Positions 10,244 through 36,708 of a DNA stretch of 64,000 bases are shown here, piece by piece. Both the position numbers and the translations under genes were made by a program. Position 1 is the first letter of the stretch. Every line of letters starts with the position of its first letter. The stretch lies in assembly GCF_003254565.1 (NCBI RefSeq), contig NZ_QJRI01000171.1:1-64000 (forward strand), given 5' to 3'. The notes beneath the pieces are model-generated. The model was given only the letters and a program-made list of their open reading frames with translations, was not told the DNA's origin and made no database searches. The DNA comes from Flavobacterium nitrogenifigens (GTDB taxonomy: Bacteria; Bacteroidota; Bacteroidia; Flavobacteriales; Flavobacteriaceae).

Positions 10244-10279
10244 AAAAAAATCTAACGTTCGAAAGAATTCGAACGCTAG
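10244..10279 (-). terminator. Intrinsic terminator after rhaEW
   Basis: A 10-bp stem with one mismatch (CTAACGTTCG against CGAACGCTAG, loop 8 nt) is followed on the minus strand by seven T residues. It lies about 55 bp after the rhaEW stop. It suggests that rhaT-rhaEW form one unit and rhaI-rhaB-lut another, or that the cluster has partial readthrough. Confidence 0.75.
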
Positions 10280-10334
10280 ACCACAAAAAACCACTTTTGC
10301 TTAAACAAACTTATATAAAAAACCTAAACAATCT

Positions 10335-12479: not shown

Positions 12480-12505
12480 ATACTATTTTAAATTATTTCT
12501 TGTAT

Positions 12506-13935: not shown

Positions 13936-14982
13936 ATGAACATGATCAAACTTATTAAAATAGACGAAGATTCTCGAGTTCCGAAATACAAACAGATTGT
14001 AGACTCTATTCTTCAGAACATCGCTAACGGAAATTTAAAAATCAATCAAAAAATTCCTTCTATAAATAGTTTCAGCGAAGAATTTTATATGTCTCGTGAT
14101 ACTGTTGAGAAAGCGTATAATATTTTAAAAGAAAGAAAAATCATTTCTTCAATTAGGGGAAAAGGCTACTATATTACCCGAACAAAATTGGAATCTAAAG
14201 TCAATATTTTATTTTTGACCAATAAATTGAGTTCCTACAAAATGAAAACCTATAGTTCATTTATTGATACACTAGGTGCTAATGCTCATGTTGACCTCCA
14301 AATTTACCACTGCGACGAAACTTTATTTTTGAATATTTTAGATAAGTTTGAAGGTGCTTATGATTATTACGTAATAACAACGCACTTTAAAACAGACGAA
14401 TTAAGGCATTTAAGTTTTACTGATGAAGTCGTCAGTGCTATTAAAAAGATCCCGCAAGAAAAACTAGTGGTTTTAGATAATATCAAATTAGGAACAGGCG
14501 ATGACGTAATTAAGATTTATCAAGATTTTGAAAATGATATTTATAATGCTCTAATAGAAGGTCTTTCTAAAATATCAAAATACAAACGTTTAATTCTGGT
14601 TTATCCTGACAAAGCAGTTTATCCTTATCCTAGACGAATTTTGCACGGATTTAGAAAATTCTGTGTCGAACACGAAATCAATTTTGAGATCTTAAGTGAG
14701 GTTTATGATGATATGATTCTTAAAAAAGGAGACCTATTTATCACTATCGAAGAATCTGATTTGGTAAATTTAGTAAAACAGATTCGTGATGAAGAATTTG
14801 TTTTAGGAAAAGATATTGGTGTTATCTCTTATAACGACACTCCTTTAAAAGACTTACTTGGCATTACTGTAATGTCGACCGATTTTAATGTAATGGGAGA
14901 AACTGCTGCGAGAATGATTTTAAACAAAGAAAAAGGTCATGTAAAAGTTCCTTTTAATTTTATTGATAGAAATTCTATTTAG
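13936..14982 (+). CDS. GntR-family regulator with sugar-binding-like domain
   Basis: A 348-residue regulator. Residues about 5-75 are a GntR winged helix (VPKYKQIVDSILQNIANGNLK, then SRDTVEKAYNILKERKIISSIRGKGYYI). The remainder resembles the periplasmic-binding-protein-like effector domain of LacI/GntR hybrids such as Bacteroidota AraR-type proteins. The ATG at 13936 is chosen over an upstream TTG. It is divergent from rhaT, so it is the likely rhamnose regulator, with L-rhamnose or an early intermediate as effector. The effector is inferred from neighbours. Confidence 0.87.
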   Translation: MNMIKLIKIDEDSRVPKYKQIVDSILQNIANGNLKINQKIPSINSFSEEFYMSRDTVEKAYNILKERKIISSIRGKGYYITRTKLESKVNILFLTNKLSSYKMKTYSSFIDTLGANAHVDLQIYHCDETLFLNILDKFEGAYDYYVITTHFKTDELRHLSFTDEVVSAIKKIPQEKLVVLDNIKLGTGDDVIKIYQDFENDIYNALIEGLSKISKYKRLILVYPDKAVYPYPRRILHGFRKFCVEHEINFEILSEVYDDMILKKGDLFITIEESDLVNLVKQIRDEEFVLGKDIGVISYNDTPLKDLLGITVMSTDFNVMGETAARMILNKEKGHVKVPFNFIDRNSI

Positions 14983-15719: not shown

Positions 15720-17009
15720 TTATTTTATTTCCATTTTTACCTTGATGGAAAGCTGTTTGGCCAAATTGGTCACATAATTAGTAAAGAAAACTGGGTCATT
15801 AAAGCCTTTATCTGCGCTCAGTTCCCAGGCCGCAATGGCATAATAGCTTATTTCTTTATTATTCTCTACTTTCAATTTTGCTAAATACGAATCTGTCAGC
15901 TGCCCCGTTTTTGGAGCTTCTATATAACCTTGGTAGATTTTTGCAGGAACTAAAATAGCTGTTCCTAAAATCCATTGGCGTTCATAAGTCAGATAATCAT
16001 GCTGAATTAAACAAATCCAATCGCCAGCTTCTATAACTTGAAGTGGATTTTTATTGTTTAAATTAGAAATTGCTGCCAGAAAAGTTTCATTTCCTTTAAT
16101 ACCATTTATAGAAACAGTGTTTTTATAACCATACATGCCTGGCCAGATAGAAGTGGTTTCCTGCACTTGATATAGATTTCCTCCAGCATTCCAATTTTGA
16201 TAATGGTAGCTTAAAACAGAATTAACAGGGCCTTCAGCAGCAATTTTAAAAGTGGTCTTTTCTACATTATTGATAGTGTCATTGCCTAAAATTCCAAGTC
16301 TATTTATTTTATTATCAATCAACAATGCATAACCTCCTAGGCCCACAGAATTTCCAACAGGAAAAATATCTCTTCCCCAATCGTACATTACATGATAATT
16401 ATCTTCAACTGCACCTTTGCTATTTATCCCCACATTTTCGGGAGTTATTCCTGGAAGTTTTTTCCCGAAAACATCTTTAGAATTTCTTCCGTCCAAATAA
16501 TGTCTAAAACCGACTTTATCATTTTCCCAAGTTGGACCATCTGTCTGGTATTTTTGATAGCCCAATTTTCTATGAACTTGATCTGCCATTAATACTTCCT
16601 GCGTATCAGGATGAACTGGAAGATCCTTCCCTTCTCTTTTTCCAAAACGAACACTTGTTTTTACTGGAAACTTCGGATCTGTTTCAGACCATTTTAATTG
16701 AATATCTTTTTCTTCGTTTGGAAGAAAATCCACAGTAAAAAAAAGTTCATCCCACTTTCCATCATCAGTAAAATCATTTGTTTGCGCAGGAATTGTATCT
16801 GTTTTAGAAAGCAATATCGGAAAAGTTCCCTTTATGTTATTTTCTCCTATATTCTCTCTTTTTATAGAAATTGCCTTTTGCGAAAGTGCCAAAGAACTGC
16901 CGTTCTTTAAAATAATCGTTCTTTCTGATACATTTTTAGAAACTTTACAACCTATCAATAAGACTGTAGCTAAAACAGTTGGAAGATAAAATAATACTCT
17001 TTTTTTCAT
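15720..17009 (-). CDS. DUF4861 family lipoprotein (first copy)
   Basis: A 429-residue predicted lipoprotein: a hydrophobic leader ends in LLIGCK, so the cysteine at about 22 would be lipidated. The C-terminal two thirds resemble the DUF4861 protein at 28363-29328. Shared signatures are GPTWENDKVGFRHYLDGRN, then DVFGKK, then DWGRDIF...GNSVGLGGYAL. The family is common in polysaccharide utilization loci, and no activity is known to me for it. About 110 extra N-terminal residues are absent from the other copy. It is separated from the main locus by 2.2 kb, so co-regulation is uncertain. Confidence 0.82.
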   Translation of the reverse strand: MKKRVLFYLPTVLATVLLIGCKVSKNVSERTIILKNGSSLALSQKAISIKRENIGENNIKGTFPILLSKTDTIPAQTNDFTDDGKWDELFFTVDFLPNEEKDIQLKWSETDPKFPVKTSVRFGKREGKDLPVHPDTQEVLMADQVHRKLGYQKYQTDGPTWENDKVGFRHYLDGRNSKDVFGKKLPGITPENVGINSKGAVEDNYHVMYDWGRDIFPVGNSVGLGGYALLIDNKINRLGILGNDTINNVEKTTFKIAAEGPVNSVLSYHYQNWNAGGNLYQVQETTSIWPGMYGYKNTVSINGIKGNETFLAAISNLNNKNPLQVIEAGDWICLIQHDYLTYERQWILGTAILVPAKIYQGYIEAPKTGQLTDSYLAKLKVENNKEISYYAIAAWELSADKGFNDPVFFTNYVTNLAKQLSIKVKMEIK

Positions 17010-17101
17010 TCTTTCTTATTCTTTATTTTTCAGAACAATTTAGCGGTTTTAATTGTTATAATAACACTTAAAATTAGAAAACTTTGTTTAATGAATGAGC
17101 C

Positions 17102-17143
17102 AAAAATAAAAAGCAGGATAAAGAACAACATTTACCCTGCTTT
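17102..17143 (-). terminator. Intrinsic terminator after the 127-residue protein
   Basis: An 8-bp stem AAAGCAGG/CCTGCTTT with an 18-nt loop is followed on the minus strand by a T-rich tract. It supports the small gene at 17204-17587 as real and as the last gene of its unit. Confidence 0.7.
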
Positions 17144-17203
17144 AAAAGCATCATTTTTTAACCAAAATGTACTCACGAAAAAAATATAAAAAAATAAAAT
17201 AAA

Positions 17204-17587
17204 TTACATCAAAAAGTACATCGCTCTGTAATATTCCTGAAACTTTTTCAGAAAATCTTTTGAAGGTTTAAAAGATTTTTTCTCCTCCTTATATTCAGAT
17301 TTACCGCTAAAAAAAAGTTTCAACTCTTTTAGAATTTCAGTCCTTGTTTTTGACTCATCAAACAAAATTAAATTGTTAGTTACTTCCAAAAATGAAAGGC
17401 TTCTATAAAACTGGATATTAAATAAACAGACCAAAGTATTTGCTCCCCTTTTGCCGTGCGATAAAAAATTAAGCAGTTCACTGTGATTGTATATAACATA
17501 CACTATCCGATCAGATTTTTTTTCAGTTTCCTCAAAAAAAGAATCTTCATAAAAATCGAATTCTTCTTTAAATCTTCTTTTAAACAT
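17204..17587 (-). CDS. Unrecognised small protein downstream of secreted protein
   Basis: A 127-residue protein from ATG 17587 (MFKRRFKEEFDFYEDSFF). An apparent extension to 17800 only runs antisense-like through the preceding gene in another frame. The body has KSDRIVYVIYNHSELLNFLSHGKRGANTLVCLFN, a serine- and leucine-rich middle, SKTRTEILKELKLFF and a basic tail ending YRAMYFLM. There is no signal peptide or catalytic motif. It starts 22 bp after the secreted protein and ends before a terminator, so the two form a pair. I do not recognise the family. Confidence 0.65.
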   Translation of the reverse strand: MFKRRFKEEFDFYEDSFFEETEKKSDRIVYVIYNHSELLNFLSHGKRGANTLVCLFNIQFYRSLSFLEVTNNLILFDESKTRTEILKELKLFFSGKSEYKEEKKSFKPSKDFLKKFQEYYRAMYFLM

Positions 17588-17609
17588 TTTTAAGAAAACG
17601 CCTTTGCTA

Positions 17610-18053
17610 TCATGTGCCGGACATGCCTGCAATTCCAACCTCGCCCTTGTCTCCTTTATCTCCTTTAAGGCTGTTGATAAAATCAGTAACCGGTTTTCCT
17701 TCATTACCAGGAATTTCTGTCCAAACCTCATACGCCGATTTTCCATCTTTTCCTGTAGTACCATCCCCCGCTGCAGCGATTCTATTCCATCTGTTATCAT
17801 ACCAGTAATAGTAACCTGGTGTTATCAAAGAATTATTTGTAGTATTAAATACCAATAAACTTTCTTTAGCATTCTTAATCGTGACATTATCTGTCAGACT
17901 TGTTAAAGGAACATTTGGTATTAAAACACCTTTATTCTGTGCACTAACATCCAATTGAGCAGACGAATGTGGTGTTTTCGTACCAACACCTACTTGTGAA
18001 TAAGCTGAATAAGATGCTAAAACAACAAATAAAGGGAGTAATCTATTTTTCAT
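17610..18053 (-). CDS. Secreted protein with short collagen-like tail
   Basis: A 147-residue protein with a signal peptide (MKNRLLPLFVVLASYSAYSQ) and a head domain ending in PGYYYWYDNRWNRIAAAGDG. The head is close to that of the repeat protein at 1-1692. A linker (WTEIPGNEGKPVTDFINSLK) leads to only four collagen-like triplets (GDKGDKGEVGIA) and an abrupt end GMSGT. Relatives usually carry much longer structural tails, so this may be a degraded or shortened copy, though the frame is intact. A surface or structural role is inferred from the architecture. Confidence 0.75.
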   Translation of the reverse strand: MKNRLLPLFVVLASYSAYSQVGVGTKTPHSSAQLDVSAQNKGVLIPNVPLTSLTDNVTIKNAKESLLVFNTTNNSLITPGYYYWYDNRWNRIAAAGDGTTGKDGKSAYEVWTEIPGNEGKPVTDFINSLKGDKGDKGEVGIAGMSGT

Positions 18054-19255
18054 AACCTTAATTTATTTTGTTTTTTAATTATTTCATTAAGTATTTAAAA
18101 TTCAATCATCTAGATTTGATGATGCAAAGTTCTTTCGAAAATAGATTTCAAAATACCCGTAGAAGTTTTAAAAATTATAAATTAAGGTATATATGAAAAA
18201 ATAAAATCATAACTAACATAAAAACAATACTTTACCAAATAAAAAAAATAAATTCTATCTAAAATTGCTTGTTAGAAGCCCATAAAAAAAAGTGCTCATA
18301 TTATCTTTCTTTTATATCATACAGATATACTTGGAATACAAAAAAATAGTTTTTTAGTTGATTCTTCTGTAGAAGAATAGTTAATCTATACATTACATTT
18401 TACAATAGCAATTTTACTTCTTGAACATAAAAAAAGGAGAGAAGCTAAAGTTCTCTCCTTTTATTAAGGCTTATAAAAAAGTAAAAAGAAATCTGAGAAT
18501 TTCACAACCAGATTATTATTCTACATGTGCAAATATCTTACAAACAAAACATTCACGCTATCACTAAAAGTTTTTAAAATTACATTTTAAGACAAACTCC
18601 ATTTAACTATTATTTTGATATACGAATGATAGATTATAAAATGCTTCTTTTCTTCAATATCGCTTAAATTCAAATTTTCGATTTTAAATTGTGTTTAAAA
18701 ACACCTATTATTTTATCAGTACTCCTAATAATTAAAAGTTGAATTCAAATTATAATCTAATCAGGAAATTAACCAGAAACTATTATGAATGAATAAATAA
18801 ACATACCATTAATGAATGAATCTATTAATCACTAGATCTAGTATCATAAAAAAAAACTAATTAATAGTTGATAGCTTATATAAGGAATAGCATTTTTTTA
18901 CGCCGAACAGCTTAAATTGATATTCTCTAGGGATGAAAATAAAACCTTGAAGGAAAAGCAAACTACTCTAAACTTATATATATACGAAGTACAGCATTAT
19001 CAGAAAATCAAATGGATGCGCAATCAAATGAGATTTTCTTCCTAGATATAAATATTGCCTAGCAGAAGATTTCATTTGTTTTTAAAAGATGGATGAACTC
19101 CACTGGTTGTGGTTAAAATTTAAATCGTGCTGCTTGAGATTTTAGCACATAGAAACATACCCACTAAAACTATAGGAACTGCTTCTGAATGTTGAAAATA
19201 ATTATACGCAAGAGCAAAAAGTGAAATAATTCTCGCTGTTCACTTTTAAAACATT
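18054..19255. other. 1.2-kb region without a recognisable gene
   Basis: AT-rich DNA with stops in all frames. It holds one good hairpin at 18432-18463 (AAAGGAGAGAA paired with TTCTCTCCTTT, flanked by A and T runs) that looks like a terminator with no gene beside it. A fragment near 19144 (GCACATAGAAACATA) resembles the arms of the repeat at 59473-59608. It may be a decayed gene region, but I can identify no remnant. Confidence 0.5.
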
Positions 19256-19999
19256 TTACTTAATTCCGTTTTTAAGATTCTTTAAAGAAACATCTTTTGA
19301 AAGCTTAATTTGGTTAATTACAATTTCAGCAATTTTATTGGCTCCTAATAATGAAAGGTGCGTATCATCAGCTTTATCTTTATCGTAAAAGCCATTCTCT
19401 CCTGCTTTAAAATGAAGATGAAGTTGTTTTGATTTTTCTGGTCCGTAAGATTGCTCCAATAACTCGGTATAATATTCTAAATCTATAAATGGCACATTGT
19501 ATTCTTGTGCCACCAATCGAGTTTCTAGAGGATAATCGCCGTGCGTTGGTACCAAAACGCCTTTTTCGTTAAAGTTGCGTCTTGAAATAGAGGTTAGCAG
19601 TATTGGAATAGCGCCTTTTTCTCTACTTTCTTTTACAAACCGAATAAGATTGTATCTGTAAGCTGTATGCGGATTTGTATAACGTGTTGAGTCTTCTATT
19701 TTCTGGTCATTATGTCCGAATTCTATAAAGACGTAATCTCCTTTTTTAAGTTTGCTGTAAATAGAATCCCATCGTTTTTCGTTGATAAAGCTTCTAGTAC
19801 TTCGTCCGTTGACAGCTTTGTTGATGACTGTTATGTTTTCGTTGAAAAATGGTTGCAATACCTGCGCCCAGCCATGTTCTGGATTTTTGTCGGGATCTTT
19901 TTTATTTGCCATTGTAGAGTCGCCTATACAGTATAGGGATGTTTTTTGTGCAAAACAAGCCGATGTGATTAGTAGTGTTAGGATGATGTATTTTTTCAT
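19256..19999 (-). CDS. SGNH rhamnogalacturonan acetylesterase (CE12-like)
   Basis: A 247-residue exported esterase. ATG 19999 gives a signal peptide (MKKYIILTLLITSACFAQ); a longer frame to 20176 reads through a dispersed repeat and is rejected. The SGNH blocks are CIGDSTMAN (nucleophile Ser), NGRSTRSF (Gly), EFGHNDQK (Asn) and DDTHLS (Asp and His). This pattern is that of rhamnogalacturonan acetylesterases, which remove acetyl groups from pectin backbones so that lyases and hydrolases can act. It lies downstream of a GH28 gene on the same strand, with a repeat-filled gap of about 290 bp. Confidence 0.9.
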   Translation of the reverse strand: MKKYIILTLLITSACFAQKTSLYCIGDSTMANKKDPDKNPEHGWAQVLQPFFNENITVINKAVNGRSTRSFINEKRWDSIYSKLKKGDYVFIEFGHNDQKIEDSTRYTNPHTAYRYNLIRFVKESREKGAIPILLTSISRRNFNEKGVLVPTHGDYPLETRLVAQEYNVPFIDLEYYTELLEQSYGPEKSKQLHLHFKAGENGFYDKDKADDTHLSLLGANKIAEIVINQIKLSKDVSLKNLKNGIK

Positions 20000-20023
20000 T
20001 TTCTTTTGTTGTTTATTTTTTTT

Positions 20024-20286
20024 ACCGCAAAGCACGCTAAGGTTTACGCAAAGTTCGCTAAGTTTATTTTTATATTTTTTGTCAAAGAGAACACAAAGCT
20101 TTGTCGATTCTCTTTGTGTAGACGCACTGCAGTGCGTCTCTACGGAAAAACTTTGCGAACTTTGCCTCCTATACAAAAACTTTGTGCACTTTGCGCATTC
20201 TTTGTGTGCTTTGCGTTAAAAAATTAACCGCAAAGTAGACGCACTGAAGTGCGTCTCTACAGAAAACCTTTATCACTTTGCGGTAA
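20024..20286. repeat. Composite palindromic repeats with nested GACGCACT module
   Basis: Two CCGCAAAG-family elements in tandem: about 20024-20219 and 20225-20286. The inner 26-bp module GTAGACGCACTGCAGTGCG plus TCTCTAC appears in both (20119 and 20235). The same module is found again at 38213, apart from the CCGCAAAG family, so modules move or exchange between repeat families. The region fills the GH28-CE12 gap. Confidence 0.85.
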
Positions 20287-20290
20287 AAAA

Positions 20291-21646
20291 TTAATGTTTA
20301 GAAACTGCTGTAGGCACTGTCGATCGTTGTCCTATAAACACATCTGTCATCAGGACATTTTCAGCATTTTCGTTTGAGAGCGCGTTTTTCGCTTCTTTGA
20401 TTTCTATATTTTTTAATGATATGTTTTTAATTTTTTTGTCTGCGAATCCTTGTATTACAATTCCTGATTCTGATGCTTTGTTACAGGTAATATTCGAGAA
20501 ATATATATTTGATATATCCGATTGATATCCTTTGCCTTCTCCGTGATAATTTGCTGTTATATACAAACAATCTTCTACTTGATCCAATTGAATGTTGTTA
20601 ACAAATATATTTTTAATATAGCCTCCACGATCGGCATTGGTTTTTAAATAAATGCCTCTCTTTAAATATCCTGCTGTTTTACAGTTTTCTACAAAAACAT
20701 TTTGAACTCCGGCCGACATTTCACTACCGATTACTACGCCGTGAAGTCCTTTAAAATTGCAGTTTCGTATTACGATGTTTTCACTTGGCGTTGCTGTATT
20801 GGCTCTTCCTTCATGGTCTCTTCCCGCTTTTATCGCGACATTATCATCTCCGTTATTAAAAGTCACATTTTCAATCAAAACATCTTTTGCATATTCTGGA
20901 TCGATTCCGTCATTGTTGTGATTTAGCGATTTATAGCTTATTCCGCGAATGGTTATGCTTTGCGATTTTAATAAATGAAGACACCAGAATGGCGAATTTT
21001 CGATTCGGATATTCTCAACCAAAATGTTCTTGCAATTCAAAAACTGAATCATCTGTGGTCTTAAAAAATAACCTTCTCCAAATTTTCTTTCTTCAATTGG
21101 ACTATTATTATGATTCATGTCACGGCTTCTATTCTTGCCTTCGTTTTCTTTTGCTTTAAAAGTTTTCCAAGTTTTTCCCCCTTCTCCGTCTATTGTTCCT
21201 TCGTCTGAAATTGCAATATTAGTACAGTTATTGGCATAAATAAGCGGACTGTAATTGTACAGCATTGTGCCTTCCCAACTTGTTAAAACCATTGGAAGAT
21301 AATCTTTTGGATTATCGCTGAATTTTATTTTGGCACCTTTTTCTATCTTCAAATTGACATTGCTTACAAAGTGAATTGGACCGTTTATTTTATAAATCCC
21401 TTTGGGCACAATTATAGTTCCGCCGTTGTTCTTCTTGCACAATGCCATTGCTTTATCAAAAGCTTTTTTATTGTCTGAAACAGAATCTCCCTTTGCTCCT
21501 AGTTTCATCACATTGATTTGAAAAGAAGGAATTTCAGGAAGTTTTATGTTCTTTACAATAGAATCGACTTTTGCTGAAGGAAAATCTCCGCTTTGTGCAA
21601 AACACATACTAGACAGGAGTATTAAGTACAAATACTTTAGATTCAT
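20291..21646 (-). CDS. GH28 polygalacturonase (first copy)
   Basis: A 451-residue exported right-handed beta-helix enzyme. The signal peptide ends near SSMCFAQ. The GH28 active-site motifs are all present: NNDGID (residues 244-249), GDD (266-268), the HG of LHGVVIGSE (302-303) and RGIYLK (330-335). It hydrolyses alpha-1,4 galacturonosyl bonds in homogalacturonan, or alternating bonds in rhamnogalacturonan; the exact specificity cannot be read here. It resembles the second GH28 at 35227. It is probably periplasmic, acting on oligosaccharides imported by the SusC/SusD pair. Confidence 0.93.
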   Translation of the reverse strand: MNLKYLYLILLSSMCFAQSGDFPSAKVDSIVKNIKLPEIPSFQINVMKLGAKGDSVSDNKKAFDKAMALCKKNNGGTIIVPKGIYKINGPIHFVSNVNLKIEKGAKIKFSDNPKDYLPMVLTSWEGTMLYNYSPLIYANNCTNIAISDEGTIDGEGGKTWKTFKAKENEGKNRSRDMNHNNSPIEERKFGEGYFLRPQMIQFLNCKNILVENIRIENSPFWCLHLLKSQSITIRGISYKSLNHNNDGIDPEYAKDVLIENVTFNNGDDNVAIKAGRDHEGRANTATPSENIVIRNCNFKGLHGVVIGSEMSAGVQNVFVENCKTAGYLKRGIYLKTNADRGGYIKNIFVNNIQLDQVEDCLYITANYHGEGKGYQSDISNIYFSNITCNKASESGIVIQGFADKKIKNISLKNIEIKEAKNALSNENAENVLMTDVFIGQRSTVPTAVSKH

Positions 21647-21670
21647 TTTTTTAAATATTGAGTTTTTTTT

Positions 21671-21815
21671 GATTTCACGCAGATTATGCTGATTTTAGTT
21701 GATTTGCGCAGATTTAATTCTAAAAAAATCTTTTTAATCTGCTTTGATCTTTTTATCCCGATAGCCATCGGGAGCCTGAAAATTTTACTCTCGCAGATTT
21801 AACAGATTATGCAGA
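21671..21815. repeat. Dispersed GCAGATT-type repeat with inner CCCGATAG module
   Basis: Multiple CGCAGATT and AGATTATGC blocks in both orientations surround an inner hairpin CCCGATAGCCATCGGGA (21757-21773). The same inner hairpin, with one base change, occurs inside two CCGCAAAG-family elements at 58553 and 60596. Confidence 0.75.
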
Positions 21816-21866
21816 TTTTTTTTTTCATTTGTTTTTGTATGCCGTCATTTTTAGCTTTTAGTCGTA

Positions 21867-21912
21867 GTCGCAGTATTCAGTACAAACTGTGACAGTGACT
21901 GAATACCGCGAC
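21867..21912. repeat. Hairpin immediately after the PL10-CE8 stop
   Basis: GTCGCAGTATTCAGT (21867-21881) faces ACTGAATACCGCGAC (21898-21912) with one mismatch. There is no T run on the minus strand, so it is not a classic terminator; it could protect the 3' end of the mRNA. Confidence 0.6.
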
Positions 21913-23913
21913 TTACTTCAAGTACCAATTTGCGATTTTATCTTTAAGAATATTTTCTATCGAATATTGTGCTGCTTCTTTCTTTGAAAGCTGATACGAC
22001 CATTTTACTCTTTTTGCTGGCTGAAATCCTTCGCCTGTGCAATTGTATTCGGCATAAAGGGCATTTTTTTCTGCTTCGGGTTTTGACCAGTTTTCCCAAC
22101 CTTCTGGTTTAATCTGTGCTCCCATTTCGCAGTTAATAAAAACGGTTTTGGCATAAATACGCCACGGTCTTCCTAAATATACTTCTTTTGCTTCTGGATT
22201 TGCTGTGAGTTTACAGTTTTTAAAAACGAATCCAAACTGGGTTCCTTCTGAAGTGGAAGCTGCTGTGATATAGGAACTTTTGATGCTGTGAATAGTGCAG
22301 TTCTCAAATAAAGCTGTTGCACCACCAAATATAAAATCGGTTGTTCCTTCTATGTAACAATCTTTAAAATATTGTTTGGCTTCTTTTCCAGATAAATATA
22401 ATGTATCCTGATTTCCTAAAAGATTACAGTTTGTTATTTTGGCTCGATTTGCTGTAACTGACAATGCAATAGCCTGTCCGCGTTCTCCAGAAGTATTTTT
22501 AATGGTTAAATTGGATGCCGAAAAATCATCTCCTTCAACCAAAAGCGTATAGGTATAAAAGGTGCTGTTTCTTCCCAGAGCAATTTTCGAAAAACTATCA
22601 TCAAAGGTAATGATGGTGTTTTCCTTGCTTTCTCCCTGTAAAACTACATGAGTGTTCCATTCGGGAATTCTAACTTTTTCGTTATAAATTCCGTTCTTAA
22701 CAAATATGATTACTTTCTCGTACGGAAAGGCTGGAGTTGCATATACGGCATCTTGAATTTTGGTATAATCTCCCGAACCATCTTGTGCTACGGTAATATA
22801 ATTGACATTTTTCTTTTCGGCGGCACCTACTTTCGTTCCATTTTTAACCGCCCAGTCTGGAAATTTTTTCAAAACTTCTTGTGGTGCATCCGAATACCAA
22901 GAATAGCCATTTCTTCTTTCTGATCCAATTTGGTCTAATGATTTTTTTCTAATTCCATCACGGTCACAAAAGAAAGGCTCATTGGTTTCTAAATCCATAA
23001 ATCTTGCCCAAATTGGTTTAGCATTTGCTGTTGGAATCATTTTTTTATCGACAATTTTCCCAGCATCATTTAAAACTCTTTTTTCTTCTAAATTGGTGAT
23101 TTTTGTTTTTTCAAACCAAGTTACAGCGCTTTTTACAGCTGTTACAATTTCTCTTGAAGGCTTATCAATAGACATTAAAAGCAATACTATTTTTGCCGAT
23201 TCGTAACCGCTTAGCGAAGCCAATTCAAAAGCTCTTGCATTTGCAGGAGCCAGCGTAACTTCATCATGCTGTGCGCACCATGCGGTCAAAACTCCATTTT
23301 GTTTGTATTGTGTTTTTAAGATGCAGTCAATTCCTTTGTCAAATGACTTTTTGCATTTTTCTACAGTTTCTTTTGATGCTTTAATGCTAAAATAATCCGA
23401 TTCGTCTGCTACGGCTTTTATGACATTCATAATATTCACCATCGAATCGTCATTGTAGGTAATGTGCGTATAATAGCCTTTTTTTAACGGATAAAACTGC
23501 GGCCAACCGCCATTTGCATATTGCGCTTCTAGTAGATAATTTAAACCTTTTAAGAAAGATTCTCGATAACGCTCGTCTTTTACCTGCGCATACATTCTAG
23601 ACATAAACAGCATTTCCTGACACGTTGCTCCGTTGTCTGTTGTCGTTTCTACGGCAGTTTTTTTGAGTGCAATTAAATCTTTTTTCTGCTTTTCAGTCAA
23701 CTCATCTTGCATCTGAATATTTTTTGGCCAGCCTCCAATGTCTCTTTGGTAGAGCAGTACATTTTCGGCTATTCTTTTTGCATCTGCTGTTGTAAACCAA
23801 GCGGCATCACTCTTACGAATAATGTCAGGCCATCTTTTATAAGTGGTTTGAGCATGAATTCCAATGCTTAAAAATAGAATAAGCATTAAAGCTGTTTTTT
23901 TTAATTGCATCAT
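21913..23913 (-). CDS. Pectate lyase (PL10) fused to pectin methylesterase (CE8)
   Basis: A 666-residue exported two-domain enzyme. Residues about 25-345 form a PL10 alpha/alpha barrel (TTDNGATCQEMLFM near 91-104, YANGGWPQFYPL near 132-143, YNDDSMVNIM near 153-162). Residues about 370-640 form a CE8 beta-helix with GNQDTLY (500-506), TDFIFG (525-530) and YLGRPWR (579-585). The esterase removes methyl groups and the lyase then cuts the demethylated homogalacturonan by beta-elimination. This gives unsaturated oligogalacturonides for GH105 and KduI/KduD. Fusing the two steps couples them on one chain. Confidence 0.95.
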   Translation of the reverse strand: MMQLKKTALMLILFLSIGIHAQTTYKRWPDIIRKSDAAWFTTADAKRIAENVLLYQRDIGGWPKNIQMQDELTEKQKKDLIALKKTAVETTTDNGATCQEMLFMSRMYAQVKDERYRESFLKGLNYLLEAQYANGGWPQFYPLKKGYYTHITYNDDSMVNIMNVIKAVADESDYFSIKASKETVEKCKKSFDKGIDCILKTQYKQNGVLTAWCAQHDEVTLAPANARAFELASLSGYESAKIVLLLMSIDKPSREIVTAVKSAVTWFEKTKITNLEEKRVLNDAGKIVDKKMIPTANAKPIWARFMDLETNEPFFCDRDGIRKKSLDQIGSERRNGYSWYSDAPQEVLKKFPDWAVKNGTKVGAAEKKNVNYITVAQDGSGDYTKIQDAVYATPAFPYEKVIIFVKNGIYNEKVRIPEWNTHVVLQGESKENTIITFDDSFSKIALGRNSTFYTYTLLVEGDDFSASNLTIKNTSGERGQAIALSVTANRAKITNCNLLGNQDTLYLSGKEAKQYFKDCYIEGTTDFIFGGATALFENCTIHSIKSSYITAASTSEGTQFGFVFKNCKLTANPEAKEVYLGRPWRIYAKTVFINCEMGAQIKPEGWENWSKPEAEKNALYAEYNCTGEGFQPAKRVKWSYQLSKKEAAQYSIENILKDKIANWYLK

Positions 23914-24152
23914 TTAATCGTTTTTTAATGCTTTTATTGTAAGGAACTATTTTTGTCTTCTAAAAGTGAAAAATTAGCTCATTTTCAACCATACTGTAAG
24001 AAAAATCATTTGAACACATATTTAAGAAATCTTTTTCTTATAAAATATGCTTGATATTGCTTTTTAAATTTAATACAGCACAATCAAATTATAGAAGCCA
24101 CTTTTTTGAAAAAAAATAAAAAATTTCCTTTTTTCTCCTTTTTTGCACTTTT

Positions 24153-25742
24153 TTATTTCGTGATTCTAAACCAATCTACCTCTACATTTCCAGAATCATT
24201 TTTTATTTCTTCGCCCAAAGCGAAAAGTCCAACTTTGGCACCAATCCATCTTCCTTCTCTAGATTTGAACTCATTTCCGATTGACTGATAATTTTTATCA
24301 TCTAAGCTGTAAAAGAAACTGCACATTCCGTCTTTCTTAATTTGAACTCTCAGATAAATGGTATTGTTTTCAATTAAAACTGGTTTTGTTCCTGTTTCCG
24401 AAACGGTTTTATCAAAAGTTCCCGTTTTCTGATTCAAGTATAGTTTTCCATCAACATTTTTAAAACACAGAAAACTATAATCTAATCCCATTATAATCAA
24501 ACCTGTGGATTCGCCTTTTAGCCTCGAATTAAAAGTCAGTTTTGTTGTAGCGGTAAATTCTTCTGCGGGAAATTTTTGCAACAATAAATTTGGTGCATTA
24601 AAAATACTGGTTGTACTCGTGTTGCAAAATAAATTCAAGTATCCTAAACTCGTTGGAAATCCAAAATTGATTTGTTTATTGGCTTGCCATTGCCATTGCA
24701 GTCCCAGTTTAGGTTCATTAAACTCATCTGAAGTTGCTGGAACTTCTATCTGATATTTTTTAACGACATTTGGCTTTCTGTAAGTTGTTACTGGCTCACC
24801 AATTCCGTTTTTATCAAAATCTTCTCCCATAACTGGCCAATCGTTTACCCATTTCATTGGCTGGAGATGAACAATGCGTCCATAGGCTTCTTTATCTTGA
24901 AAATGAAAAAACCAGTCTTCTCCTGTCTGTGTCGTAACCCAAACACCTTGATGCGGACCATTTATTTTGGTCGAACCTTGTTCTAGAACCTTCTTTTTTT
25001 CATAAGGCCCGAAAACATTTTTCGATCTTAAAACCGTCTGCCATCCTGTTGGAACTCCGCCAGCTGGAGCAAAAATGTAGTAATATCCATTTCGCTTGTA
25101 AAATTTTGGCCCCTCAATGGTTTCTTCGCCCTTATGTCCGTCAATAACCATAACTTCGTCATTGTTCACAACTGTTCCTTCTGGATTCATCGTACATACG
25201 ACTAACAGACTTTTAATCTGCGCGCGACTTCCTGCAAAAGCATGAGTCAAATAAGCTTTCCCATCGGTATCCCAAAGCGGACTAGGATCGATCAATCCTT
25301 TTCCTGCTTTAACCAAAAGCGGTTCAGACCAAGGGCCTTCTGCTTTTTTTGCTTTTATCATATAAATTCCGAAATCGGGATCTGGATAATAAATATAAAA
25401 TTCGTTTTTATTAAACGTAATGCTTGGCGCCCAAACTCCGTTTCCGTGCTGTACTCTATCGTACGTTTCAAACGGTGGCTGTTTTACCAAAGCATGTCCG
25501 ATAATTTTCCAGTTTACCAAGTCTTTTGAATGTAAGATTGGCAAACCCGGAATACAGTTAAAAGATGAAGCTGTCATATAATAATCATCGCCTACGCGAA
25601 CAACATCTGGATCTGAATAATCGGCATGAATAACCGGATTGGTGTATGTTCCGTCTCCATTATCTGGCGTCCAGACTTGTGCGGTATTCTTTTGAAAAGG
25701 AATAATACAGAAGAGGAAAAGGATGATTCTTATATTTTTCAT
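24153..25742 (-). CDS. GH43 glycosidase with C-terminal beta-sandwich
   Basis: A 529-residue exported protein. The signal peptide ends near KNTAQ. The five-bladed propeller starts at YTNPVIHADYSDPDVV (catalytic base Asp), has LIDPSPLWDTDGKAYL in the middle (pKa-modulating Asp) and EETIEGPKFYKRNGYYY (general acid Glu). A concanavalin-like domain follows, about residues 335-529. The family includes alpha-L-arabinofuranosidases, beta-xylosidases and galactan-active enzymes. Here arabinan or galactan side chains of rhamnogalacturonan are the likely target. The subfamily cannot be fixed by eye. Confidence 0.92.
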   Translation of the reverse strand: MKNIRIILFLFCIIPFQKNTAQVWTPDNGDGTYTNPVIHADYSDPDVVRVGDDYYMTASSFNCIPGLPILHSKDLVNWKIIGHALVKQPPFETYDRVQHGNGVWAPSITFNKNEFYIYYPDPDFGIYMIKAKKAEGPWSEPLLVKAGKGLIDPSPLWDTDGKAYLTHAFAGSRAQIKSLLVVCTMNPEGTVVNNDEVMVIDGHKGEETIEGPKFYKRNGYYYIFAPAGGVPTGWQTVLRSKNVFGPYEKKKVLEQGSTKINGPHQGVWVTTQTGEDWFFHFQDKEAYGRIVHLQPMKWVNDWPVMGEDFDKNGIGEPVTTYRKPNVVKKYQIEVPATSDEFNEPKLGLQWQWQANKQINFGFPTSLGYLNLFCNTSTTSIFNAPNLLLQKFPAEEFTATTKLTFNSRLKGESTGLIIMGLDYSFLCFKNVDGKLYLNQKTGTFDKTVSETGTKPVLIENNTIYLRVQIKKDGMCSFFYSLDDKNYQSIGNEFKSREGRWIGAKVGLFALGEEIKNDSGNVEVDWFRITK

Positions 25743-25767
25743 TTTTAAACTATACTTTTTATTTAAA

Positions 25768-25794
25768 CCCGACAGGTTTTAAAAACCTGTCGGG
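25768..25794. repeat. Perfect CCCGACAGG palindrome between GH105 and GH43
   Basis: CCCGACAGGTTTT and its inverse form a stem of at least 12 bp with almost no loop. It lies in the spacer upstream of GH43 and is followed on the minus strand by an A/T-rich tract. It may be a weak terminator, an mRNA processing element or another dispersed repeat. A TTCGACTCCGCTCAG fragment of another repeat family lies next to it, near 25840. Confidence 0.7.
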
Positions 25795-25890
25795 TCTTAA
25801 ATTTGCTTTTCTTTGTGGAGTTTCTTTGCGATGCTTCGACTCCGCTCAGCAAGACAAAGCAGAACATTCATAACTCATAACTTCTAAAAA

Positions 25891-27114
25891 TTATCTGTTT
25901 AACTCAATAGCTGCCAAAATAAAAGGCCCTGTTGCTTTAGGATCGTTGTCTTTTTTTCTTTCGTTTACGTAATATTCGTAAGAACCATCACGGTATGGGT
26001 TTCCACCTAAACCTGCTACTTGACAGCAGTTTGTTAAAGTAATTCCGCCATCTTCATCCACTTTTTTGATTAAAATCGTTGTTAATCCGTCAAAAGCTTT
26101 GTTGGCTGCTTTTTTAAATTTAGCTGGCAAATAGCCTTTGTTTGCTCCTTTTGCATAAGCATACGCAAACATTGCAGATCCAGAAGCTTCTAAATAATTG
26201 TCTTTTTCTCCGCCTTTATCTGTAACCTGATACCATAAACCAGATTTGCTATCTTGAAATTTAAGTATCGCTTCAGAAGCATTGTTTAAATATTTAATCA
26301 ATTCTTTTCTTTTTGGATGATCTTTTGGCATATAATCTAAAACATCAACCAAAGCCATTACATACCAGCCTAAAGATCTAGACCAGAAGTTTGGAGAGTT
26401 TCCTGTTTCTTTATTTGCCCAAGGCATTTGCTTGCTTTCGTCCCAACCATGGTACAATAATCCAGTTTTAGGATCTGTTGCTTTAAGCTGAATCACTTCA
26501 AATTGTTTTGCGATATCGTCAAAACTTTTTCCATTTTCAAATCTAGCAGTGTATTCTGCATAGAATGGTTCGCCCATATATAAACCATCTAACCACATTT
26601 GGTTTGGATAGATTTGTTTGTGCCAGAATCCACCGCTTTGCGTTCTTGGCTGTTCTGTAAGTTGTTTGCGAATTAATTGTAACGCTTTTAAATATTTATC
26701 TTCTTTTGAATAATCATATACATTAAAAAGCAGACGACCTGGCAATACTAAATCAATATTGTATTTATCGAATTCGTATGTATTAATGCTTCCGTCAGCT
26801 TGAACTAAATTATCTACATAACCTCTGATGTAAGCTTTATATCTCGGATCTGGATTTTTTTTGTATAATTCTTCGATCGAATGCAATACTAAAGCATGAA
26901 CATAATCCCACTTTGGCTTTTTGGCATCGTCAATCATGTATGCTTCTGGATGACGTTTCATCAACGTTAAGGCCATTTTATCAGACCATTTCGCATTTTT
27001 ACCAATCACGATATCTTTTGCAGGTTCCTGCGAGGTTACTTTACAGCTCGTAATTGTCATAACAAAGACCATCAGAATCGACATGAAGTAACTATGCTTT
27101 CTATTATTTTTCAT
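25891..27114 (-). CDS. GH105 unsaturated rhamnogalacturonyl hydrolase, lipoprotein
   Basis: A 407-residue protein with a lipoprotein signal (TITSCK, Cys24). The alpha/alpha barrel carries the GH105 active-site Asp in NQMWLDGLYMGEPF (Asp176) and the FWHKQIYP lead-in. It removes the unsaturated uronic acid from oligosaccharides left by pectate or rhamnogalacturonan lyases. The product feeds KduI and KduD. It is a tandem paralogue of the gene at 27137-28357, sharing most motifs, but here the protein is membrane-anchored whereas the neighbour has an ordinary signal peptide. Confidence 0.93.
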   Translation of the reverse strand: MKNNRKHSYFMSILMVFVMTITSCKVTSQEPAKDIVIGKNAKWSDKMALTLMKRHPEAYMIDDAKKPKWDYVHALVLHSIEELYKKNPDPRYKAYIRGYVDNLVQADGSINTYEFDKYNIDLVLPGRLLFNVYDYSKEDKYLKALQLIRKQLTEQPRTQSGGFWHKQIYPNQMWLDGLYMGEPFYAEYTARFENGKSFDDIAKQFEVIQLKATDPKTGLLYHGWDESKQMPWANKETGNSPNFWSRSLGWYVMALVDVLDYMPKDHPKRKELIKYLNNASEAILKFQDSKSGLWYQVTDKGGEKDNYLEASGSAMFAYAYAKGANKGYLPAKFKKAANKAFDGLTTILIKKVDEDGGITLTNCCQVAGLGGNPYRDGSYEYYVNERKKDNDPKATGPFILAAIELNR

Positions 27115-27136
27115 TTCAACATATATTTAAATTCAA

Positions 27137-28357
27137 CTATTTTTCTAATTCAATTGATGCTAATAAAAATGCTCCAAGGCCTATTGCACCGTTTTCTTTT
27201 GTTTTGGAAGTCAGATAATAACTGTTTGTTCCGTCACGGAATGGCTTTCCGCCCAAACCTACATTTGATGAAACATTCAATATATTGACTTCTCCTTTTT
27301 TATCTACTTTCACAAATTCTTTTACAAAGCTGTCAAATGATTTTTTGGCTTTTGACTTGTAGCTTGATGCTAAATAGCCTTTATTCGCTCCTTTTGCAAA
27401 AGCATAAATAATCATTCCAGAAGCAGAGGGTTCTACGTAATTTCCATACAATTCTGGTTTATCAGCTACTTGATACCATAACCCATTTTCACTTTTATAC
27501 TGATTCACATTTTTTGCAATCTGATTCAAGTATCCAACCAAAACCTCATATTTTGGATGCGATTTTGGAAAATAATCCAATGTTTCAACCAACGCCACCA
27601 TGTACCAGCCAATTCCCCTGCCCCAAATGGTTGGCGAAGTTCCCGTCTGCTTATCTGCCCACGCGATTTCTTTACTTTCGTCCCAAGCTTGATAAACCAA
27701 ACCTGTTTTTGGGTCTACAATATGTTTTTGAACCAATTCAAACTGCTTAGCAATATCATCTAAGCTTTTTCCTTTTTCGTACTTAACCGTAAACTGCGCA
27801 TAAAAAGGTTCTGCCATATACAAACCGTCAATCCACATTTGGTTTGGATAAATCTGTTTGTGCCAAAATCCTCCGCTTGGTGTTCTTGGCTGACTTTCTA
27901 ACTGATTTCTAAGTTTTCCGATAATCTGCAAATAGCGAGAATCTTTTGTGACATCATAAAGATTAAACAACAGTTTTCCGGGATTCAAACAATCGATATT
28001 GTATTCTTTAATATCATATTTTTTAATATTTCCTGTACTGTCAATCATTCCATCAACATATTCTTGAATATAGTTTAGGTATTTTTTATTGTTAGTCTTC
28101 TGATACAATTTTTCAAAACCGGATAATACAAAACCCATTTTATAATCCCATTTTGGTTTGTCATTTCCATCTAGCTGCCATGCATTCGGATACTTGCTTA
28201 AAATAGAGAGTGCTGTTCGTTCTGACCATTTTAAATTGTACGGAATGACATTATCTGATACTTCAGCTTGATTTTGAGCAGTAATTTTATTTCCAAAAAT
28301 CAGCATTAAAACCAGAATGTTTCCGAGAATGAATTTTGTTGAAAGAGATTTATACAT
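27137..28357 (-). CDS. GH105 unsaturated rhamnogalacturonyl hydrolase, secreted
   Basis: A 406-residue paralogue of the preceding gene product, with a classical signal peptide (to NKITAQ). The catalytic Asp is at 177 in NQMWIDGLYMAEPF. The FWHKQIYP and GRGIGWYMVALVETLDYFPK segments also align with its neighbour. Tandem GH105 copies often divide the work between galacturonan-derived and rhamnogalacturonan-derived ends; that split is inferred. It sits 5 bp downstream of the DUF4861 gene and 22 bp upstream of the second GH105, so the three are clearly co-transcribed. Confidence 0.93.
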   Translation of the reverse strand: MYKSLSTKFILGNILVLMLIFGNKITAQNQAEVSDNVIPYNLKWSERTALSILSKYPNAWQLDGNDKPKWDYKMGFVLSGFEKLYQKTNNKKYLNYIQEYVDGMIDSTGNIKKYDIKEYNIDCLNPGKLLFNLYDVTKDSRYLQIIGKLRNQLESQPRTPSGGFWHKQIYPNQMWIDGLYMAEPFYAQFTVKYEKGKSLDDIAKQFELVQKHIVDPKTGLVYQAWDESKEIAWADKQTGTSPTIWGRGIGWYMVALVETLDYFPKSHPKYEVLVGYLNQIAKNVNQYKSENGLWYQVADKPELYGNYVEPSASGMIIYAFAKGANKGYLASSYKSKAKKSFDSFVKEFVKVDKKGEVNILNVSSNVGLGGKPFRDGTNSYYLTSKTKENGAIGLGAFLLASIELEK

Positions 28358-28362
28358 AAAAA

Positions 28363-29328
28363 TTACATTTTGCCTTTTTTATTCAGTACTTCTAATTGCT
28401 TATCTAAATATTGCGCAAATTCTTCTTTCGTTTTGATTCCGTTTACTTCTTGTTCCCAAGCACCTAAAAGGTAAAAAGTCACCGCTTTTGTTGTTGGTTT
28501 AAAAACTAAAAGATAATCTAAATCTGTATCTGCAATATTTTCGATAGTACTAATTTCATAAAAAATTGCCATTCCTAACTTATCTGGAACCAAAGATTGC
28601 TCTCCATAAGTTGCCAGATACGCCCATTTTTTGTTTTTGCTTTCTTTTTTAAGCAATTCAGCTGTTTTCTGTTTTACAATTCCAGTACAGATCCCTTTGA
28701 TTGCTTGTGATGCTTTAATCGTATGCTGCGTATATAACTGATCTGGTTTAATAGTCAATTCTGAAATAAAATCAATTTTATCCGAAGCTGTTTTCCATCC
28801 ATAATAATTTACTTTTACCACAGATTCATTAGCTTTATTTGCAACTGTTGCAATGGTTGAATCAACTTCACGGAAGTGTAATTTTTCATTATTTAAATAA
28901 CGGTCAATAGAACCAATTCCGATTCCTTTTCCAGCTTTTAAAATATCAGCTCCCCAATCGCTCATTTCATGGTATGAATCGAAACCGTCCTGCCCTACTT
29001 TTGGCAAAATATTTTCTGATGTCTTTTTCCCGAAGATATCAATAGCATTTCTCCAATCTAAATACAAACGATATCCAATTCTGTTGTTTTCCCAGCCTGG
29101 ACCTTCGTAACGAATATCAAAAGAGTGGTCAGTATGTTCTGGCGCCAGTTTTAATCGATCCACATTTTTAAATACAGTACCGCCCTTATATTTTCTTCCT
29201 TCCCATTTTCCGTCTGTTTTTGCAGAAATTTCGGCATACGTTTTATTGGTTTTGATATCATATTTCTGCGCATTTATGGCTGTTAGACCTGCGAAAAATA
29301 AAACTGCTGTGGTGATTTTTGCTTTCAT
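28363..29328 (-). CDS. DUF4861 family secreted protein (second copy)
   Basis: A 321-residue exported protein (signal peptide to LTAINAQ) made almost entirely of the DUF4861 domain. Shared with the copy at 15720 are GPGWENNRIGYRLYLDWRN, DIFGKK, HEMSDWGADILKAGKGIGIGS and a C-terminal YYL/FYLLGAWE segment. It is packed 5 bp from a GH105 gene and 12 bp from an esterase gene inside the pectin operon, so a role in pectin oligosaccharide breakdown is likely. Conserved Trp, Asp and His residues could form an active site. No catalytic activity is known to me. Confidence 0.85.
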   Translation of the reverse strand: MKAKITTAVLFFAGLTAINAQKYDIKTNKTYAEISAKTDGKWEGRKYKGGTVFKNVDRLKLAPEHTDHSFDIRYEGPGWENNRIGYRLYLDWRNAIDIFGKKTSENILPKVGQDGFDSYHEMSDWGADILKAGKGIGIGSIDRYLNNEKLHFREVDSTIATVANKANESVVKVNYYGWKTASDKIDFISELTIKPDQLYTQHTIKASQAIKGICTGIVKQKTAELLKKESKNKKWAYLATYGEQSLVPDKLGMAIFYEISTIENIADTDLDYLLVFKPTTKAVTFYLLGAWEQEVNGIKTKEEFAQYLDKQLEVLNKKGKM

Positions 29329-29340: not shown

Positions 29341-30279
29341 TTATTTAAAAATTGTATCTAAAAATCGTACGCTGTACGAGATTGTCTGTGTAAACCAAGG
29401 TTCGTAAAACCAAAATGAATGTGGCGAATCTGGAATGGTCTGCACTTCATTATAGATTTTATATTTGTTTAAAATCTGAATCATATCGTCTCTTCCTGCA
29501 TGAAATCTCGGAATACTGCTGCAGATGTATAATACGGGTGGTGTATTTTTGTCTGTATGACTCAATGCCGAAGCGTTTTTCCAGTTTTCAGGAATCTCAA
29601 CTGATTTTCCTCCTAACCAAAATGCCGCCATATCTCCTTCTGAAGATTCTGGATGCTTGAATGCTAAAACACCGTCTACATCTATTATGGCATGAACTTT
29701 TGACGAAGAACGGCTTTTAAAATTTTTATCTTCAAAAAACGGATCATTATTTGTTGTACCAATCAAAGCTGCCATTTGCCCTCCCGAAGAACAGCCTAAA
29801 ACCGCAATTTTGTTTGGATCTACATTGAGTTTTACCGCATTCTCTTTAATATATTTTATTGCATTTTTAACATCAATAACTCCTGTTGGATATTTTGCTT
29901 CCAATGATAATCTGTATTCAATAGCAAAACAAGAATAGCCTTTTGCTGCAATTGCTGCACCTAAAAACTGCATCTGGTTTTTATTGCCCGATCTCCATCC
30001 TCCGCCATGAATCATAATTACGGCAGGATTTTTTTTCTTCTTAGTATTGATAAAAGCATCAAAATGCAAAACGCGATCTTGCTCTTTATTGTAAACCAAA
30101 TCAAACGTCTCTTTAACATCTGGATTTGCCTTTATTTCTGGAATGGTAATAAATGGATATTTCTTAATTAATTTAACGTAAGTGCTCTTAATGGTATACG
30201 AAGTGTCTACCTTGTACTGCTGGCTTTGCATTACAATTACATTAAAAAACAACGCTAAGATTAATTTAAATTTTCGCAT
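29341..30279 (-). CDS. Exported alpha/beta-hydrolase, probable carbohydrate esterase
   Basis: A 312-residue exported hydrolase. The oxyanion-hole motif IHGGGWRSG, the nucleophile elbow GCSSGGQ and a C-terminal PHSFW histidine are in the expected order, as in the BD-FAE/acetylesterase group. It would remove acetyl or similar ester groups from pectin oligosaccharides. It is embedded between SusD and a DUF4861 gene in the pectin operon, which supports that role. It differs from the esterase at 48584, to which it is related only at family level. Exact ester specificity is unknown. Confidence 0.88.
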   Translation of the reverse strand: MRKFKLILALFFNVIVMQSQQYKVDTSYTIKSTYVKLIKKYPFITIPEIKANPDVKETFDLVYNKEQDRVLHFDAFINTKKKKNPAVIMIHGGGWRSGNKNQMQFLGAAIAAKGYSCFAIEYRLSLEAKYPTGVIDVKNAIKYIKENAVKLNVDPNKIAVLGCSSGGQMAALIGTTNNDPFFEDKNFKSRSSSKVHAIIDVDGVLAFKHPESSEGDMAAFWLGGKSVEIPENWKNASALSHTDKNTPPVLYICSSIPRFHAGRDDMIQILNKYKIYNEVQTIPDSPHSFWFYEPWFTQTISYSVRFLDTIFK

Positions 30280-32053: not shown

Positions 32054-32066
32054 TTGAATATCTTTA

Positions 32067-36663: not shown

Positions 36664-36708
36664 TTGCACAGATTTTTCTTGTTTTACTATCGAAAACATC
36701 ATGTTTTA

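Follow-up and report, generated by a model that had tools for sequence, protein, structure and literature searches.

On beta-elimination, polymers of galacturonate and of glucuronate/iduronate yield one and the same unsaturated uronate, the L-threo form, from which the route runs to KduI, the enzyme that handles 5-keto-4-deoxyuronate; alginate gives the L-erythro form, which is handled by another reductase. The known linearase is KdgF, a ring-opening cupin that acts on 4,5-unsaturated monouronates, and NanM is a sialic-acid mutarotase. GalM-type aldose 1-epimerases have a catalytic His and Glu in the sugar pocket and their conserved polar residues in a spread-out order, and PL26 exo-rhamnogalacturonan lyases have a C-terminal alpha/alpha toroid. 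Here, we analysed a 64,000-nucleotide stretch of the Flavobacterium nitrogenifigens genome (contig NZ_QJRI01000171.1, positions 1 to 64,000; hereafter, the window) that carries two genes of the protein family DUF4861 (Pfam PF16153), for which a first-pass annotation had proposed an uncharacterised step in pectin breakdown. Our analysis ties DUF4861 to unsaturated-uronate catabolism and not to pectin alone; the interpretation of the first-pass annotation is partly supported. DUF4861 very probably works somewhere in the KduI route, and our tentative first choice is that it is an exported accessory enzyme of the KduI-KduD route, most likely for the ring opening or ring-form conversion of an unsaturated or 4-deoxy-5-keto uronate.

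Both genes are genuine, as the first-pass annotation had stated: their open reading frames (ORFs) exist, and both products score far above the curated PF16153 cut-off of 22.3 bits. Copy b (28363-29328, minus strand) encodes 321 amino acids and matches the profile with 209.4 bits (E 1e-61). Its match begins at profile position 58, indicating that the N-terminal domain is missing, and the protein consists of a signal peptide, which looks ordinary by eye, and the core supersandwich domain only. Copy a (15720-17009, minus strand; 429 amino acids; 287.4 bits, E 2e-85) contains an N-terminal domain in addition to the supersandwich and, as previously suggested, is a lipoprotein, with the lipobox LIGC seen by eye. 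The two copies are clearly related (25% identity over 346 alignment positions; pairwise E 5e-19) and share the DWG block and the WEN(D/N)(K/R)(V/I)G block (WENDKVG and WENNRIG) that had already been pointed out, and the gaps reported around copy b, 5 bp to a GH88/GH105-family gene and 12 bp to an esterase gene, are exact, an operon-like placement. Copy b belongs to clade I and copy a to clade II of four groups, delimited by eye on a midpoint-rooted FastTree tree irrespective of branch support, group IV being a mixed basal set; a third copy on another contig of the genome (G000:C63:118385-119464) belongs to clade III. Against NCBIfam NF058564 (BT_3233 family polysaccharide utilization protein), the window copies scored 77.6 and 45.1 bits, below the equivalog cut-off of 320; judged by these scores, they are related to this family but are not that equivalog. 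A literature search for DUF4861, PF16153, BT_3233 and IPR032342 found no relevant paper.

KduI is the constant genomic partner of DUF4861 in the genomes checked. In a sample of 296 genomes of the phylum, we detected DUF4861 in 60, KduI in 88, GH88/GH105 in 101 (weak matches being included in all GH88/GH105 genome counts), GH28 in 72 (E <=1e-10) and KdgF in 53 (at least 130 bits, the next score down being 84). All 60 DUF4861 genomes contain KduI, compared with 28 of the 236 others, a comparison for which KduI was chosen after it had been sighted in the gene neighbourhoods and in which the Fisher p-values ignore relatedness. The association persists among genomes that are negative for GH28, where KduI is present in 11 of 11 genomes with DUF4861 versus 12 of 213 without it. 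GH28 itself was found in 49 of the 60 DUF4861 genomes, leaving 11 without it at E 1e-10, and KduI is present in 65 of the 72 GH28 genomes. GH88/GH105 was found in 59 of the 60, six of them only weakly; the remaining genome, G160, has KduI without a GH88/GH105 match. Each of the 17 families with DUF4861 is also among the 24 families with KduI. KduI was also present in all of 20 further DUF4861 genomes drawn from the best 80 of a longer list of loci, 18 of which are new (two have KduI coordinates identical to those of sample genomes); they include records of KSB1, Neomarinimicrobiota and Chromatiales, although a small contig may have been assigned to the wrong metagenome bin. Moreover, KduI is found less than 20 kb away from 45 of the 84 DUF4861 genes, versus approximately 0.8 expected at random placement.

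Gene neighbourhoods were compared in 99 DUF4861 loci (17 from the genome itself and its genus, 2 from other families of the order and 80 from the phylum sample); the clade counts are based on 98 placed loci, L091, a 3-kb contig, being excluded. Neighbours were labelled by their best BLAST match to the window's own genes (E <=1e-10) or by the Pfam of one cluster representative, and KduD, LacI, GDSL and GH43 are labels for broad families. In the 99 loci, frequent neighbours of DUF4861 within 8 kb were genes for KduD-like proteins (45 loci), GH88/GH105 (42), GH28 (30), LacI (27), KDPG aldolase (26), KduI (25), GDSL (24), UxuA (19), DctP (17) and DctM (16), whereas the 40 control regions, 20-kb segments of the same genomes at round coordinates chosen by hand rather than drawn at random, contained KduD-like genes in two cases and the other nine clusters in none over their whole length. 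SusC was near 22 of the 99 loci and in 4 of the 40 controls. The possibility raised by the first-pass annotation that DUF4861 genes occur equally outside glycan loci was not borne out: a pectin or uronate gene lies within 8 kb in 88 of the 98 placed loci versus 4 of the 40 controls. Pectin markers were found in this range in 53 of the 98 loci (1 of the 40 controls) and uronate-catabolism markers in 56 (3 of the 40 controls).

In 35 of the 98 loci, uronate genes are present within 8 kb without any pectin-degradation marker. In 14 of the 98 loci, KduI, KduD and DUF4861 follow one another in exactly this order on one strand; these loci are spread over three clades (one in clade I, five in II and eight in III). 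KduI or KduD-like genes accompany DUF4861 in 29 of the 39 clade III loci, and 27 of the 39 have uronate but no pectin markers. In the same clade, L097 contains heparinase II/III and sulfatase genes; L100 has both the heparinase and the sulfatase cluster again and L161 the heparinase cluster, while sulfatases are present in L135 and a PF05426 lyase in L146. The most common same-strand direct neighbour of DUF4861 is a GH88/GH105 gene (24 of the 99 loci, with gaps of <200 bp). Rhamnose genes lie within 8 kb in only 4 of the 98 loci. DUF4861 thus follows KduI across pectin loci and heparinase/sulfatase loci, and a common uronate unit, rather than a pectin linkage, therefore best explains its distribution. 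The earlier proposal of an uncharacterised pectin step stands in part: DUF4861 proteins are predicted to be exported, have conserved polar residues and are encoded predominantly in glycan loci, but the uronate-only loci, the heparinase/sulfatase loci and the genomes lacking GH28 speak against pectin specificity.

Genes for anomer-converting enzymes are found in some of the same loci. An L-rhamnose mutarotase gene lies directly upstream of a relative of copy a in L142 (11046-11369) and one ORF away from another in L132 (11836-12150), the structure-library match having been made for L142 only; in both loci, a GH88/GH105-family gene follows downstream of the copy-a relative. Genes of the DUF386/YhcH family occur in clade III Flavobacterium loci, and Escherichia coli YhcH is reported as an anomerase (PMC8141875). 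KdgF-like genes are present in five of the DUF4861 loci that were fetched, and no signal peptide was seen by eye in the five copies.

An alignment of 120 sequences revealed four residues that are 98-100% conserved, Glu162, Arg169, Tyr171 and Asp214 (P0001 numbering), together with Trp161 (91%), Tyr205 (93%) and His206 (89%). The first-pass annotation had described the shared blocks as rich in Trp, Asp and His; Asp and Trp are indeed among the most conserved residues, but so are Glu, Arg and Tyr, and His appears as part of a Tyr-His pair. Within clades I-III, all 85 members have Tyr205 and 81 of them have His206. In group IV, the pair is kept in 5 of 13 members, 4 of which have uronate genes within 8 kb, versus none of the 8 members without it (one of which keeps His alone); this comparison involves a small sample that is clumped by descent. 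A subgroup without the Tyr-His pair (L086, L087, L088, L187, L188 and L189) adjoins GH92-cluster genes, with the exception of L187, and its role may differ. One TAG was counted in the matches behind L185, L187, L188 and L189.

A hydrophobic N-terminal segment was detected by a simple hydropathy test in 96 of the 98 placed members, the two exceptions being located at contig edges, and a lipobox was found in 26 of the 46 placed members of clades I and II. The surface-export signal of Bacteroidota lipoproteins is acidic. Because only 3 of 40 lipobox members have at least two acidic residues at positions +3 to +5, most DUF4861 lipoproteins look periplasmic rather than surface-exposed. From these N-terminal features, DUF4861 proteins are predicted to be exported and either periplasmic or membrane-anchored.

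AlphaFold2 models of the two window copies were built with fetched homologs (64 and 38 sequences) and confidently predict a galactose-mutarotase-like supersandwich in both (predicted local distance difference test [pLDDT] 91.4 and predicted template modelling score [pTM] 0.87 for copy b; pLDDT 92.4 and pTM 0.89 for copy a). In both models, the sandwich strands are followed by one C-terminal helix region, with which the chain ends. The core of copy b matched GH65 7fe3 (Z 14.6), Bacillus subtilis GalM 4bze (Z 12.3; root-mean-square deviation [rmsd] 3.5; 199 aligned residues), the PL4 rhamnogalacturonan lyase 1nkg (Z 12.2, rmsd 3.4, 184 aligned) and the putative aldose 1-epimerase 3ty1 (Foldseek E 3.7e-5, Z 11.7). 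Full-length copy a matched sandwich regions of GH38 mannosidases (Z up to 17.1) and the PL26 exo-rhamnogalacturonan lyase 5xqo (Z 13.7, rmsd 3.7, 286 aligned, model residues 25-429). These lists represent a second look at Foldseek matches, and the absence of a family from them does not exclude it. The comparison with glycosidase and lyase folds that the first-pass annotation had suggested thus gave matches to PL26, PL4, GH65 and GH38, and GalM and a non-enzyme, YidC, are matched as well. As supersandwiches are common to mutarotases, lyases and accessory domains, the predicted fold alone does not give the function and is weak evidence of it. No convincing sequence relative was found among solved structures: the best match of copy a (E 1.3) and that of copy b in the structure library (a 'surface anchored protein', E 0.025) are at chance level, and a 64-sequence DUF4861 profile searched against solved structures retrieved no relative.

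The mechanism that we favour would be as follows. The lyases and GH88/GH105 hydrolases that work outside the inner membrane would leave a 4,5-unsaturated or 4-deoxy-5-keto uronate unit, on which the supersandwich domain of DUF4861 would act, most likely in a mutarotase- or linearase-type reaction. The open 5-keto-4-deoxyuronate would then be imported by an ExuT-like or TRAP transporter and passed to cytosolic KduI and KduD. In F. nitrogenifigens, copy b would work for the pectin locus, alongside the two GH88/GH105-family enzymes encoded there, and copy a would be devoted to a related product of pectin or rhamnogalacturonan. Catalysis, a free or terminal uronate unit as the substrate and ring-form conversion as the reaction are what we infer; ring-form conversion is our first choice because DUF4861 is predicted to be exported, has a mutarotase-like core and is encoded together with anomer-converting enzymes in some loci. 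The evidence does not require DUF4861 to break an oligosaccharide. In its most far-reaching form, the proposal would make DUF4861 an unrecognised exported enzyme family that, before uptake, interconverts the ring forms of the unsaturated or 4-deoxy-5-keto uronate of the L-threo series, which is common to pectin and glycosaminoglycans, an extracytoplasmic counterpart of KdgF with a mutarotase-like fold, a new active site and an obligate partnership with KduI across phyla; we regard this full version as rather unlikely.

Several observations weigh against ring-form conversion. Pectin genes occur without uronate genes within 8 kb in 32 of the 98 loci, and neither kind is present in 10; likewise, 16 of the 60 genomes have no DUF4861 gene within 20 kb of KduI. 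DUF4861 does not exclude KdgF, as both are present in 33 of the 60 genomes. According to published work, GH88 enzymes already release the 5-keto product, so that it is not evident why a ring-opening enzyme should be needed. The conserved polar residues bunch in one stretch (residues 79-139 of copy b, P0002), and homology to GalM by sequence was rejected (no Pfam match with E up to 10; hhalign <=0.2%). The fold of copy b also matches the periplasmic domain of the insertase YidC (5y82, Z 12.6). The fusion of DUF4861 to a CE8 pectinesterase domain in L128 (8359-10596), identified with Pfam, resembles lyase-esterase fusions of pectin degraders. Finally, the only profile signal obtained was to PL26 (PcRGLX-like), with an hhalign probability of 83% among 10 profiles when signal peptides were included. 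As a separate idea, replacement of KdgF by mutual exclusion was rejected as a simple rule, because KdgF is found in 33 of the 60 DUF4861 genomes versus 10 of the 28 KduI-only genomes (Fisher p 0.11). The only KdgF match of the F. nitrogenifigens genome at E 1e-12 (G000:C140:143183-143512) is located on another contig, away from the pectin locus.

The L128 fusion and the PL26 profile signal favour the main rival, which we rate only slightly below ring-form conversion: DUF4861 might be a lyase or an unsaturated-uronyl-cleaving enzyme, acting on pectin- or glycosaminoglycan-type oligosaccharides to create or take away the unsaturated uronate at their non-reducing end, as PL26 and PL4 rhamnogalacturonan lyases do with a similar sandwich domain. 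This rival would also accommodate the fold matches to PL26 (copy a) and PL4 (copy b), the ORFs in L124 and L129 that nearly equal the L128 fusion in length (a resemblance by length alone), and G160 together with the six DUF4861 genomes that have only weak GH88/GH105 matches. In a comparison with 16 profiles after trimming of the signal peptides, PL26 again stood out, with a probability of 22% for the whole of DUF4861 and 56% for its N-terminal domain; the other 15 profiles, including those of aldose epimerases, GH88/GH105, GH28, KduI, KduD, GH92, GH2 and heparinase, gave <=1.9%. Against a lyase, the core domain of DUF4861 alone gave 0.4% for PL26, and the WEN...DWG motif region of DUF4861 falls in gaps of the PL26 alignment. 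The PL26 profile is also of low diversity (Neff 2.4). In eight DUF4861 proteins, both window copies included, we found no Pfam match to PcRGLX, PF01263, PF07470 or cupin with E up to 10, and the models contain no PL26-like toroid. We therefore treat the profile signal as a lead and not as proof. A lyase would, in addition, have to be reconciled with the fact that DUF4861 accompanies loci for different polysaccharides, whereas KduI remains constant.

Two further explanations do not invoke chemistry on the uronate unit. DUF4861 could be a non-catalytic carbohydrate-binding or uptake helper that delivers unsaturated or 4-deoxy-5-keto uronates to transporters, which would be in line with the lipoboxes of clades I and II, the YidC match, the TRAP transporter genes that lie less than 8 kb from DUF4861 in 17 of the 98 loci and a GH2 enzyme with a C-terminal DUF4861 domain (L186, 9566-12853), whose locus has KduD-like, UxuA and TRAP genes. 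We consider such a helper unlikely, because the TRAP loci carry their own binding protein, DctP, and because near-invariant Glu, Arg, Tyr and Asp residues and a Tyr-His pair across divergent clades are more reminiscent of an active site, although binding sites can be conserved too. It is also conceivable, though quite improbable, that DUF4861 is an ordinary component of pectin loci directed at another pectin substituent or at rhamnose, its link to KduI reflecting merely a shared habit of using uronate polysaccharides. The frequency of pectin markers around DUF4861 and of GH28 in DUF4861 genomes, and the position of copy a beside rhamnose genes in the window and in several Flavobacterium loci, fit this explanation; the persistence of the KduI link in GH28-negative genomes, the rarity of nearby rhamnose genes and the loci with uronate but no pectin markers do not. 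Ring-form conversion of a uronate unit remains our first choice, with the reservations listed above.

The window itself brings these functions together between 7 and 48 kb. Immediately downstream of copy b lies the GH88/GH105-family (PF07470) gene for an unsaturated uronyl hydrolase (27137-28357, minus strand), with an export signal by eye, followed by a second PF07470 gene (25891-27114, minus strand), whose product has a lipoprotein-like N-terminus by eye; since PF07470 does not split GH88 from GH105, the earlier GH105 name is not based on Pfam. The esterase gene upstream of copy b (29341-30279, minus strand) encodes a BD-FAE alpha/beta hydrolase (Pfam BD-FAE) with an export signal by eye. 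The minus strand also carries the SusD and SusC pair of the pectin locus (30380-35195), a GH28 gene (35227-36702) and a group encoding a GDSL esterase, GH28, a pectate lyase (PF09492)-pectinesterase fusion (PL10-CE8) and GH43 (19256-25742). A LacI-type regulator gene (36952-37980, plus strand) lies between the polysaccharide and uronate parts, the latter comprising, on the minus strand, genes for UxaA, a UxaB-type dehydrogenase, KDPG aldolase, a KdgK-like PfkB kinase and UxaC (38331-44955), a KduD-like short-chain dehydrogenase (44980-45771; Pfam adh_short, named KduD from its position beside KduI), KduI (45773-46612; PF04962) and an MFS transporter that is ExuT-like by position (46710-48176). 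No export signal was seen by eye in the KduI or KduD-like protein of the window.

On the other side of copy a, L-rhamnose genes encode an FGGY kinase, a sugar isomerase-like protein, a RhaD-type aldolase-dehydrogenase and RhaT (7187-13555, minus strand); such genes adjoin copy a only in some Flavobacterium loci. Beside them, the gene at 13906-14982 (plus strand) joins a GntR DNA-binding domain to a LacI-type ligand domain. An ORF of 147 amino acids at 17610-18053 (minus strand), with a signal peptide and GxxGxx collagen-like repeats, overlaps a 198-amino-acid ORF in another frame (17204-17800) and looks frameshifted or degenerate; ORFs related to this region (17204-18053) are located directly upstream of copy-a orthologs in several Flavobacterium loci. 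Farther away, genes for a PepSY_TM protein, a DUF4374 protein and a TonB-dependent receptor stand in a row (49612-54739, minus strand), perhaps an iron/haem uptake set.

These results place DUF4861 in one short pathway common to degraders of pectin and, probably, of glycosaminoglycans, and its function should be testable by existing coupled assays; a KduI-KduD coupled assay with an NADH readout is described in PMC12269599. If DUF4861 is a true converter of ring forms, current maps of uronate use miss an extracytoplasmic step; if it is a lyase, it would found a new polysaccharide-lyase-like family on a PL26-like scaffold.

Among the known systems closest to DUF4861, NanM and YhcH offer an analogy only, as anomer-converting enzymes of acidic-sugar catabolism (for YhcH, see PMC8141875). 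Their folds differ from the one predicted for DUF4861, and their substrates from the one proposed here. GH88/GH105 hydrolases are frequent neighbours, yet their hhalign probability to DUF4861 is <=0.2% and DUF4861 has no PF07470 match. KdgF would resemble DUF4861, under our preferred reading, in acting at the same point of the pathway, and differs in having a cupin fold instead of the predicted supersandwich. The GalM-type aldose 1-epimerases (PF01263) are alike in the predicted supersandwich and, like copy b, are small single-domain proteins, but they share no sequence or profile similarity with DUF4861 and their conserved residues are clustered differently. The PL26 exo-rhamnogalacturonan lyases appear similar in the predicted two-domain layout of copy a, which they match over its full length; in contrast, DUF4861 lacks the toroid and a Pfam PcRGLX match, and its motif has no counterpart in the PL26 alignment.

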